Source: Chloroflexi bacterium OLB13 (lineage in GTDB: Bacteria; Chloroflexota; Anaerolineae; Aggregatilineales; Phototrophicaceae). Taken from it: a stretch of 64,000 bases of DNA. The position numbers were made by a program, and so were the translations under genes. How positions within the stretch are numbered: the first letter of the stretch is position 1; each line of letters begins with the position of its first letter. Under the pieces are notes generated by a model, which was not told the origin of the DNA, searched no databases, and worked only from the letters and a program-made list of their open reading frames with translations. Below, one piece after another: positions 7,807-53,563 of this stretch. The DNA is taken from positions 1-64,000 of the forward strand of contig JZRA01000132.1 of NCBI GenBank assembly GCA_001567485.1. The letters run 5' to 3'.

Positions 7807-7845
7807 AAGCGGGGCGCATCAACGTGTGTTCGATGCGCCCCGCTT
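7807..7845 (-). terminator. Strong hairpin after ftsZ
   Basis: AAGCGGGGCGCATC (7807-7820) is perfectly complementary to GATGCGCCCCGCTT (7832-7845), a 14-bp stem with an 11-base loop. The minus-strand U-tract is weak (CTTTGG), so it may attenuate or protect the 3' end rather than fully terminate. Confidence 0.6.
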
Positions 7846-16604: not shown

Positions 16605-16612
16605 GCTTGCTG

Positions 16613-16686
<74 letters not shown>

Positions 16687-16798
16687 CGCTGCGCACAGTA
16701 TAGCATCGCATTTACGGCGCGATCAAGTGGAACTTTGACTGGCCGCTAGACCCCCATTTTGTGGGTGCTGAAAAAATGTTGAATGTTGAAAAGAATGC

Positions 16799-16827
16799 TT
16801 GACACGGGCGCGAATCGGGCATACACT
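16799..16827 (+). promoter_or_regulatory. Strong sigma70-type promoter of the small-protein module
   Basis: A perfect TTGACA (16799-16804) and TACACT (16822-16827) lie exactly 17 bases apart. The expected start of transcription is at about 16834, inside the palindrome annotated next. GAATGCTTGA, a half of that palindrome, also overlaps the -35 at 16793-16802. Confidence 0.75.
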
Positions 16828-16831
16828 GTTT

Positions 16832-16861
16832 TCAAGCGTTCAAACAAAATTGAATGCTTGA
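16832..16861 (+). promoter_or_regulatory. Palindromic operator candidate
   Basis: TCAAGCGTTCAA (16832-16843) and TTGAATGCTTGA (16850-16861) form an inverted repeat with 11 of 12 positions matching around a 6-base centre. It covers the predicted transcription start, the place where a repressor would act. The half CATTCAA recurs at 17363-17369, beside the start of the ArsR-like regulator gene. Confidence 0.6.
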
Positions 16862-16892
16862 AATCGAAGGAAATAGCTGCTGGAGGCTTCAG

Positions 16893-17024
16893 ATGTTCAT
16901 CGACCCGATCGGTCACGTCCAACTGGTCCGCGCTGAAGCGATCCGCCGGGCGGAAAAGCAGCGCCTCGTCAAGCTGCTCAAGCTGGCGCGTCTCACCGCC
17001 CGTTCGGCTGCCCGCACCGCCTGA
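16893..17024 (+). CDS. Small Arg/Lys-rich protein, 43 aa (unknown)
   Basis: ATG at 16893 is preceded by GGAGG with ideal spacing, downstream of a strong promoter. The product starts MFIDPIGHVQLVRAEAIRRA and ends in LARLTARSAARTA: a short hydrophobic N-tip followed by a basic amphipathic helix, with no membrane span, cysteine or signal peptide. It resembles the next small protein in general plan (MF start, Gln/His patch, then Arg-rich helix), which suggests paralogy. No function can be named. Confidence rests on the RBS and promoter rather than homology. Confidence 0.6.
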   Translation: MFIDPIGHVQLVRAEAIRRAEKQRLVKLLKLARLTARSAARTA

Positions 17025-17097
17025 GTCAAGCGGTTGCTCCCGCCGTCCGCATTCATAGTCCGAACCAACCAACGACTAATCTGAGGGGAATCACACC

Positions 17098-17265
17098 ATG
17101 TTCAACCTGTCGATCCAAATTCAGAGCCAGCACCGGATCGCCGACCTGCGCCGCGAAGGCGACGCCCGCCGCCAGATGCGCGAACTGCGCGCCGAACTTC
17201 AAGGCGATCCGCAGGTCAAGCCGGAGCATCCCCGCCGCGAGAAGCGCACCGCGCGCTCATCCTAA
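17098..17265 (+). CDS. Small Arg-rich protein, 55 aa (unknown)
   Basis: ATG at 17098 follows GAGGGG. The product starts MFNLSIQIQSQHRIADLRRE, continues with an Arg/Glu-rich helix (RRQMRELRAELQ) and ends in a Pro/Lys/Arg tail. Very rich in Arg, cytoplasmic, likely helical. Seventy-three bases after the first small gene and probably on the same transcript. Function unknown; a nucleic-acid-binding or structural role would fit the charge but is speculation. Confidence 0.6.
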   Translation: MFNLSIQIQSQHRIADLRREGDARRQMRELRAELQGDPQVKPEHPRREKRTARSS

Positions 17266-17291
17266 CTCCGCCTTCAAGGTCCTCCCCATGC

Positions 17292-17329
17292 GCGCGCACC
17301 TGTCCCCAGAAAATATGCAGGTGGCGCGC
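17292..17329 (+). other. Imperfect hairpin between small genes and regulator
   Basis: GCGCGCACCTG (17292-17302) pairs with CAGGTGGCGCGC (17318-17329), 11 pairs with one bulge and a 15-base loop. No U-tract follows on the plus strand, so it is not a standard terminator. Confidence 0.4.
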
Positions 17330-17347
17330 AAACGAGTGTTCGGCGTA

Positions 17348-17356
17348 TGATATAAT
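17348..17356 (+). promoter_or_regulatory. Extended -10 promoter of the ArsR-like regulator
   Basis: TGATATAAT at 17348-17356 is a perfect extended -10 element 34 bases before the regulator ATG; no -35 is evident, as is usual for this type. Confidence 0.55.
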
Positions 17357-17390
17357 TCATTCCATTCAAGAAGTTTTAACACTAGACAGA

Positions 17391-18059
17391 ATGCCCATGC
17401 TCGATCTCTCAGAAGCCAAACGTTTCACACCCGCGGCTGAACTGGTCATCTCCGACCTTGAAACCCTCAAAGTTCTGGCCGACCCCCTCCGCCTCAGCAT
17501 CCTCGAATTTCTCATGCGCCCGAGCACGGTCAAGCGCATCGCCGAGAAGATCAATAAGCCCGCGACCAAGCTGTACTATCACTTCAACCTGCTTGAGAAG
17601 CACGGGCTGATCGTGCTGGTCGATACGCGCATCGTGTCCGGCATCATCGAGAAGCACTATCAGGCGGCGGCGCGTATTTACCGCGTTGCCAAGAATCTGC
17701 TGGCGCCGGGTTCGGACGAGTTCGACGAAGGGCTTGAACTAACACTGAACGGCGTGTTTACCTCGACCAAGCAGGAAATCCTCGCCAATATCCACGACGC
17801 AACGATTGATATGCAGGAAGATGCGCCGTGGCATCGCCGTATGACCCTCAGCAATCAGCGATTCGAGCTGACGCCCAAGCAGTATGAGAAGTTTCATCAT
17901 GCCTTGAAGGGCCTCATCGCCGAGTACAGCGACGTTACTCAGGAAAATCAGGAACACGGCGCTCAGACGACGTCAATGAAGCTGCTGCTGGTGTCGTATC
18001 CCATCGTGACTGACGACGTGGACGCCGCGGACGGCGGCGAACAGGGTGAACAGTCGTAA
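17391..18059 (+). CDS. ArsR-like winged-helix transcriptional regulator
   Basis: A 222 aa protein. Residues about 20-95 form a winged helix-turn-helix: LADPLRLSILEFL, then the recognition region KRIAEKINKPATKLYYHFNL and the wing LLEKHGLIVLVDTR. The KLYYHFNLLEKHGL pattern is typical of the ArsR/HTH_20 group. The C-terminal half (100-205) is not recognised and may sense a ligand or dimerise; no cysteine metal site is visible. ATG 17391 or 17397 are both possible and RBS is weak. It lies after the small-protein module and overlaps the next gene by 14 bases. It is the natural candidate to bind the operator at 16832-16861. Confidence 0.85.
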   Translation: MPMLDLSEAKRFTPAAELVISDLETLKVLADPLRLSILEFLMRPSTVKRIAEKINKPATKLYYHFNLLEKHGLIVLVDTRIVSGIIEKHYQAAARIYRVAKNLLAPGSDEFDEGLELTLNGVFTSTKQEILANIHDATIDMQEDAPWHRRMTLSNQRFELTPKQYEKFHHALKGLIAEYSDVTQENQEHGAQTTSMKLLLVSYPIVTDDVDAADGGEQGEQS

Positions 18060-18924
18060 GTCTGTGACCCTACCTAAGACAGACAACCGCTCGCGTATTC
18101 GCCGCTTGGGGCGTCCGCTCCGGACGGGCTTCGCTGTTTTGAAGGCGCTGCTGCTGGTCGGCTGCAATCTGATTAACCCGCCGGCGACGCCGCCCGCGCC
18201 GCCCCCTACCGAACCGACGCAGGTTCCACACCCGCCTGATGCGCCATCGCCGGAACCGGGGTGGGAGTTGATCGCGCCCGGTGCGGAGCGCAAATTCGTA
18301 CAGCCGCCGAACTTCGGGCCGTTTGCGTCGGTCGTGATTCATCGTTTCGACCCCACGCTTATCCGGTTCAGCGCCCATTACAGCCCGTCGGCGCCGTTGT
18401 GGATCAGCGATTGGCACTCGCAGACTCCGGGCGCGGTCGCGTTCATCAACGCAAACTTCTTCGATCCGTCCGGCTCACCGCTTGGGTTGGTCATCTCGGC
18501 CGGCACGCCGTACGGCCAGGGCTATGTCGGCAGGGGGGGCATGTTCGCCACGGCCGGCGATCTGGTATGGGTGCGCTCGCTCATCACCGATCCGTATGGG
18601 AGTGCTTCACTCGATACCGCGGTGCAGGGGTTTCCGATGCTGATAACCGACGGCGTCCCCAACCTCGGCAACGGAAGCGCGGATCGCACGACACGACGTA
18701 CGGTCGTAGCGCAGGACAGCGCGGGGCGCATCCTGTGGATCTCCACTCCGCTGCTCGGTATGACTCTCAACGACATGGCGCGTTTTCTCAGCGAGTCCGG
18801 CTTGCAGATCGTCCACGCGCTCAACCTCGACGGCGGCGGATCGACGATGCTCGCGTCGCCCGGCTCGGACATCCCGTCGCTCGACGCCGTTCCGGTCATC
18901 CTCGCCGCTTATCCCGTCAACTAG
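18046..18924 (+). CDS. Lipoprotein, phosphodiester glycosidase (NAGPA/DUF2233) family
   Basis: A 292 aa exported protein. An Arg-rich N-terminus and hydrophobic stretch lead to a lipobox LLVGC with Cys40 as the lipidation site, then a Pro-rich spacer to about residue 70. The remainder is a NAGPA-like domain: AFINANFFDPSG, TAVQGFPMLITDG, TTRRTVVAQDSAGRILW and ALNLDGGGSTML, all hallmark blocks. Members uncover or trim phosphodiester-linked sugars in glycans. The start is GTG at 18046, overlapping the regulator gene by 14 bases, so the two are coupled. Extracellular-face location inferred. Confidence 0.87.
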   Translation: MNSRKSVTLPKTDNRSRIRRLGRPLRTGFAVLKALLLVGCNLINPPATPPAPPPTEPTQVPHPPDAPSPEPGWELIAPGAERKFVQPPNFGPFASVVIHRFDPTLIRFSAHYSPSAPLWISDWHSQTPGAVAFINANFFDPSGSPLGLVISAGTPYGQGYVGRGGMFATAGDLVWVRSLITDPYGSASLDTAVQGFPMLITDGVPNLGNGSADRTTRRTVVAQDSAGRILWISTPLLGMTLNDMARFLSESGLQIVHALNLDGGGSTMLASPGSDIPSLDAVPVILAAYPVN

Positions 18925-18944
18925 GGTGGCAGCGATTGGTTGAA

Positions 18945-19058
18945 GTTCTCAGTTTTCGGTTTTCAGTATCCAGTTTGCAGACTCCAGTTTGCAGACTCCA
19001 GTTTCCAGTTTCCAGTTTTCAGTTTTCGGACTCCAGTTTTCGGTTTTCAGTTCTCAGT
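18945..19058 (+). repeat. Degenerate short tandem repeats (CAGTTTY type)
   Basis: About fifteen imperfect 7-8 base units of the form cagttt(t/c)c or cggactc, such as ccagtttccagttttcag. Non-coding. Sits directly upstream of copy 1 of the dispersed element, just as a similar array precedes copy 4. Confidence 0.75.
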
Positions 19059-53530: not shown

Positions 53531-53563
53531 AACGGCCGGGAATCTATGCGATCCCCGGCCGTT
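53531..53563 (-). terminator. Terminator of acnA
   Basis: AACGGCCGGG (53531-53540) and CCCGGCCGTT (53554-53563) form a 10-bp stem; on the minus strand T-rich GTTTCTGTT follows. Confidence 0.8.

Follow-up and report, generated by a model that had tools for sequence, protein, structure and literature searches.

A probable ArsR-type regulon built around small helical proteins in Chloroflexota

The small-ORF unit described here probably belongs to an autoregulated ArsR-type regulon, the main output of which would be a small helical protein, with an MFS exporter as a second target and, least certainly, with feedback of the small protein on the regulator. This reading, held with moderate confidence, draws on the anatomy of the locus, its conservation, selection on the protein sequence, signals for separate transcription and an operator pattern shared between sites. 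The proposal of the initial annotation that this is an operator-controlled unit of real small proteins without a known family is supported by conservation, selection and family searches.

The window, meaning the whole stretch of 64 000 nt that was analysed, comes from contig C132; the genome measures 4.2 Mb and has its relatives among the Anaerolineae (Chloroflexota). The small-ORF unit sits between a divergent tRNA-Val gene and the gene of an ArsR-type HTH_20 regulator, and consists of a strong promoter, an inverted repeat that covers the start site, and two short ORFs, each with a good ribosome-binding site (Table 1). The promoter had been called perfect; only its −35 hexamer is, and with 10 of 12 consensus bases the promoter is better described as strong. 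Two promoter sites of this kind lie in 1.1 kb, against 0.3 in shuffles. The inverted repeat, first described as 12 bases long, does lie over the start site but is slightly longer, with 14-base arms that pair at 13 of 14 positions; a repeat of equal quality arose in 1 of 2000 shuffles of local intergenic DNA. Two further strong, GC-rich inverted repeats with 13/14 arms are found within the 64 kb (7808–7844 and 53531–53563). Both short ORFs and their ribosome-binding sites were confirmed. Apart from these corrections the compact two-ORF unit is confirmed. It is also larger than first drawn, taking in the regulator gene and an MFS exporter gene located elsewhere in the genome with a similar operator.

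Table 1. Positions of the features of the small-ORF unit and its regulator in the window
Feature	Position	Strand	Basis or remark
tRNA-Val	16612–16686		Divergent to small-ORF unit
Upstream operator half-site TTGAATGTTGAA	16779–16790	+	Precedes −35; sequence
Sigma-70-type promoter of small-ORF unit, TTGACA-N17-TACACT	16799–16827	+	Sequence; layout common to relatives
−35 TTGACA	16799–16804	+	Sequence
−10 TACACT	16822–16827	+	Sequence
Putative operator, inverted repeat TTTCAAGCGTTCAA-N6-TTGAATGCTTGAAA over start site	16830–16863	.	14-base arms, 13/14
Ribosome-binding site of ORF1, GGAGG	16882–16886	+	Sequence
ORF1, small basic protein, 43 aa	16893–17024 (including stop)	+	Counterpart at the same place in same-genus G002
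Ribosome-binding site of ORF2, GAGGGG	17083–17088	+	Sequence
ORF2, small basic protein, 55 aa	17098–17265	+	Syntenic counterparts in G001 and G002
GC-rich hairpin between ORF2 and regulator	about 17289–17330	+	No T-run in the window
Regulator promoter, −10 TATAAT (17351–17356) with repeat-like CATTCAAGAAGTTTTAAC	17351–17380	+	Sequence
ArsR-type regulator (HTH_20; 222 aa), cysteine-free, with a PH1932-like fold	17391–18059	+	Pfam, AF2, Foldseek

The regulator belongs to the HTH_20 family, with a domain score of 40.3 bits (E 3e-10) against a Pfam gathering score of 27. Its AF2 model has a pLDDT of 90, its profile matches PDB entry 1uly with an E-value of 3e-10, and its best Foldseek matches are PH1932 (1uly) and Kfla_6221 (4g6q). 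The protein falls outside the metal-sensing ArsR/SmtB group (HTH_metalloreg, NCBIfam NF033788), scoring 33.8 bits where the cut-off is 55, and this, together with the lack of cysteine, makes a metal signal through thiolates unlikely. The end of the regulator gene is overlapped by a gene for a NAGPA (phosphodiester-glycosidase) domain protein (18046–18924, + strand). A NAGPA gene also follows the regulator in G001 (L079), G002 (L080) and G004 (L081), and thus may belong to the regulator operon. A tandem array of the 7-base unit AGTTTTC, 16 copies at 72 %, occupies positions 18944–19058.

The arrangement is retained in genomes of the same genus. A single contig of G002 carries the tRNA, promoter, repeat, ORFs of 51 and 60 aa (both with an MF start) and regulator in identical order, the regulator being 73 % identical to that of the window. 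Promoter, repeat, second ORF and regulator are likewise kept in G001, where the first ORF is not recognisable. ORF1 and its G002 counterpart match at 60 % over 30 aa with a pairwise z of 11, and the phmmer match between them (E 3e-5) is the best among 1347 window ORFs. The pairwise matches of ORF2 are weaker, with z of 3.3 to the G001 counterpart and 7.1 to that in G002. A counterpart in a relative is clear for ORF1, and for ORF2 it is recognised from its place and the pairwise match. In relatives the small ORFs are kept beside regulator and operator, the check that the initial annotation had proposed. The MF start common to both ORFs is real; the suggested paralogy, however, is unsupported by direct comparison, which is not above shuffles (z −1.0). 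ORF2 is predicted to form a single helix (residues 2–34; structure model pLDDT 74). The pN/pS of the two ORFs against G002 is 0.63 and 0.82, which at this greater divergence is weaker evidence of selection than that from the close pairs below.

Direct searches with each of the two proteins in 61 related genomes returned almost only chance matches, and the small ORFs of relatives were located with the regulator as anchor. A profile search with the regulator gave 80 loci in named genomes. An ORF of 36–77 aa with the same promoter/repeat layout lies upstream of the regulator in 28 of the 52 Chloroflexota-type loci that have enough upstream DNA. Judged from their sequences, the small proteins upstream of regulator homologs are one unnamed, widespread family. 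Most members have the core Q..xLRxAxxxRLxR, and some have a second helix, AWxGERxxxxGxRL. When the family profile was run over all ORFs of the 80 loci it gave 26 matches at E<0.05. Every one of them lies just upstream of the regulator or exporter on the sense strand, and three (L097, L098 and L107) had no part in the profile. On a tree of the regulators from 50 loci and the window, 5 changes account for where the small ORF is present, compared with 17 in shuffles. In eight close pairs of small ORFs pN/pS is 0.05–0.41, and the control-frame comparisons give ratios of about 1 or above in seven of eight; the small ORFs are proteins under purifying selection. Contigs L100 (labelled Pleurocapsa minor) and L096 (Bacteroidetes) group with Anaerolineae regulators; these names are doubtful and the contigs are probably misbinned MAG contigs.

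Both proteins of the window occupy the family position before the regulator. ORF1 matches the family profile at E 0.015 with genus members included and at 0.5 with its own genus left out, while ORF2 matches at E 2.3 and is missed by the profile made without own-genus members, so that its putative family membership rests on synteny and pairwise similarity. The Arg-rich, basic character noted initially holds for the two proteins and many relatives, which are high in Arg and Lys, but it does not define the family, as Arg ranges from 7 to 20 % and net charge from −5 to +10. No helix of the small proteins is more amphipathic than those of shuffled sequences. Searches of Pfam, NCBIfam, PHROG and PDB with the window's proteins and their relatives found no family match, in agreement with the original view of the two as unknown proteins, and literature searches found no description of the small-protein family or of the regulon.

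With the family profile, further members were detected in other Chloroflexota and remote relatives in Streptomycetaceae, e.g. MFEYQLIVARTDELMAQAEHERLVREVRRANK. In two Streptomycetaceae loci (L242 and L244) the small ORF is directly 5′ of a large gene whose product, judged by eye, resembles ATP-binding regulators of the LuxR/LAL type. At L159:1435-1677 a related small ORF, MFTHTDWLIHLEHHKDLLREAEKERLAK..., directly precedes a permease gene that looks ArsP-like and is near a sigma-factor gene.

Almost every small-ORF promoter in the relatives is of the TTGACA type with a TTNAATGTTGAAA-like site 5′ of the −35, and before most of these promoters such sites occupy the same place as TTGAATGTTGAA in the window. 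Almost all have a CATTNAA-N6-TTNAATG-like core after the −10, and this operator core is kept ahead of small ORFs, of the MFS gene and of homologs of the regulator. When up to 3 mismatches are allowed, the pattern TTNAANCRTTNAAN6TTNAAYGNTTNAA has 17 matches in the 41 kb that lie upstream of regulators and 3 in 352 kb elsewhere, an upstream count that is partly circular because the pattern was drawn partly from these loci. The reversed pattern and 20 shuffles gave no matches. MFS sites and regulator-only sites were left out when the pattern was derived. In regulator homologs that have no small ORF (L122, L123, L126, L135 and L136) the pattern lies 47–104 nt before the regulator, which points to autoregulation. 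Further matches, in G007:C3, G004:C58, G004:C192, G033:C122 and G027:C37, fall within genes or have unrelated genes as neighbours; they were dismissed as chance because matches to the reversed pattern are comparably frequent in many of these genomes.

Downstream of ORF2, at the position of the hairpin in the window, several relatives carry a stem plus T-run. Such a structure is found 3′ of the small ORF in L081, L089, L094, L101, L103 and L106, and several of these six have a TATAAT-like box ahead of the regulator. A terminator-like stem followed by a separate regulator promoter suggests that in those loci the small ORF probably forms its own short transcript and is not a leader of the regulator gene.

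In the window's genome the operator pattern occurs at two places only, the small-ORF unit and about 80 bp before an MFS transporter gene whose promoter lies within G000:C142:16370-16490, and in G002 it is found at the same place before the MFS ortholog. Both MFS sites (G000 and G002) have 3 mismatches to the pattern, and in both the repeat lies between −35-like and −10-like hexamers, read by eye. The MFS proteins resemble exporters of the Mef(A) and TIGR00900 types in sequence, below the curated cut-offs: they score 111–125 bits against Mef(A) (NCBIfam NF000245; cut-off 675) and 183–219 bits, over the full length, against the H+ antiporter subfamily TIGR00900 (curated cut-off 319.6). The gene order in G023 is operator, small ORF, MFS and regulator, with no terminator found between small ORF and MFS, and in G025 it is small ORF, MFS and regulator. 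MFS genes also adjoin regulator homologs in L121, L126, L130 and L138. No close MFS ortholog was found in G006 or G017, both of which have the small ORF, and no clear operator was found for the G004 ortholog; the exporter is thus a frequent and not a constant partner.

Taken as a regulon, the system would work as follows. The regulator is predicted to bind at three places: the TTCAA/TTGAA repeats flanking the promoter of the two small ORFs, a site ahead of the regulator gene, and one within the promoter of the MefA-like MFS gene. It would thereby hold down all three promoters, repression being the presumed direction of control. A signal would then release it; a toxic small organic molecule is suggested, as the regulator contains no cysteine that could bind a metal. 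Upon release, a short mRNA for one or two helical proteins of 36–77 aa would be made at a high level, along with the exporter and more regulator. The small protein may act by protein–protein contact through its conserved helix. Feedback on the regulator is its most likely role, favoured because the small protein accompanies the regulator more regularly than it does the exporter, and is the least certain step of the proposal.

Two other roles for the small protein are close rivals of feedback. It could serve the co-regulated exporter as an accessory subunit or modulator, the part that AcrZ plays for AcrB; both proteins would be made on demand, and the helix would bind the cytosolic or membrane face of the pump. 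The operator pattern common to the MFS gene and the small-ORF unit in G000 and G002, and the small ORF that opens the exporter cluster in G023 and G025, would fit such a role. It is nevertheless a fairly improbable one, given that in some genomes the small ORF accompanies the regulator in the absence of a close MFS ortholog, that most members, unlike AcrZ (PMC7267776), look too polar for a transmembrane segment, and that no significant amphipathic helix was found. Alternatively, the small proteins may have nucleic acid or the ribosome as their target and serve a general stress response, the exporter link being incidental. The Arg and Lys content is consistent with this, as are the unrelated genes and regulators that the wider family adjoins in other groups and the RNA binding of the DUF1127 protein CcaF1 (PMC12501420); yet net charge is not conserved, and the conserved core is a helix pattern and not an Arg cluster, so that this role is likewise viewed as doubtful. 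A broader version of the feedback reading covers the 36–77 aa helical proteins of both Chloroflexota and Streptomycetaceae. Encoded by the first gene ahead of unrelated regulators (HTH_20 here and, in Streptomycetaceae, LuxR/LAL-like), they would be general small partners that tune such regulators by direct binding, a generalization that is fairly improbable.

Leader-peptide stalling control is known for macrolide-efflux and erm genes, and a small ORF upstream of a regulator or MefA-like MFS gene, encoding basic peptides and followed by a hairpin ahead of the regulator, could be read as a leader peptide whose stalling with a ribosome drug opens the downstream gene. This is unlikely. Selection acts across the whole protein, which at 36–77 aa is long for the purpose; in the relatives the hairpin takes the form of a stem with a T-run, after which comes a TATAAT-like regulator promoter; the window has two ORFs in series; and an Rfam search found only the tRNA and no leader element. 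A leader or attenuator would share a transcript with the controlled gene and have a switchable hairpin, which the separate regulator promoter and the stem with T-run of several relatives do not match. G023, in which the small ORF precedes the MFS gene, is exempt from this verdict, but the lack of a terminator between the two genes there also speaks against a leader. The least probable of the alternatives is a toxin–antitoxin-like pair in which the small proteins would act as toxins and the regulator as repressor or antitoxin. Small basic proteins do adjoin an apparently autoregulated regulator, but the closest relatives of the regulator are within the same genus and family, a search of a plasmid collection with a Streptacidiphilus relative gave no match, and the regulator frequently occurs without the small ORF.

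Proteins of such size are often missed by annotation. The present family, from a phylum poor in genetic tools, shows selection on the protein and comes with its promoter and operator defined, as well as with a likely regulator and an exporter under the same control. The context of regulator and exporter makes the job of the small proteins testable through binding of the regulator, the inducer, and contact with the regulator or pump; should the function be the same in the Streptomycetaceae relatives, this could be done in a tractable host.

Several known systems are similar in part. PH1932 (PDB 1uly/2cwe) and Kfla_6221 (4g6q) are like the regulator in the HTH_20 domain, the profile match and the best Foldseek matches, but the overall fold aligns only in part (TM 0.42–0.59). 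Some Arg-rich DUF1127 proteins (YjiS, CcaF1) exert their effect through binding to a regulator (PhoR) or to RNA (PMC12501420). These are likewise very small, Arg-rich and predicted to be helical, whereas the window family has a different conserved core, occurs in other phyla and gave no Pfam DUF1127 match at E<=1 for the window's proteins or any tested relative, which places it outside that family. AcrZ, the transmembrane small-protein partner of the RND pump AcrB (PMC7267776), is similar as a small protein linked to an exporter, but the window-family proteins look cytosolic and in most loci the exporter is not next door. Mef(A)/TIGR00900 MFS exporters under local regulators are alike in having a co-regulated MFS gene that scores to both profiles; here the scores lie below both cut-offs, and the MFS gene has its operator pattern in common with a small-protein unit to which it is not linked.
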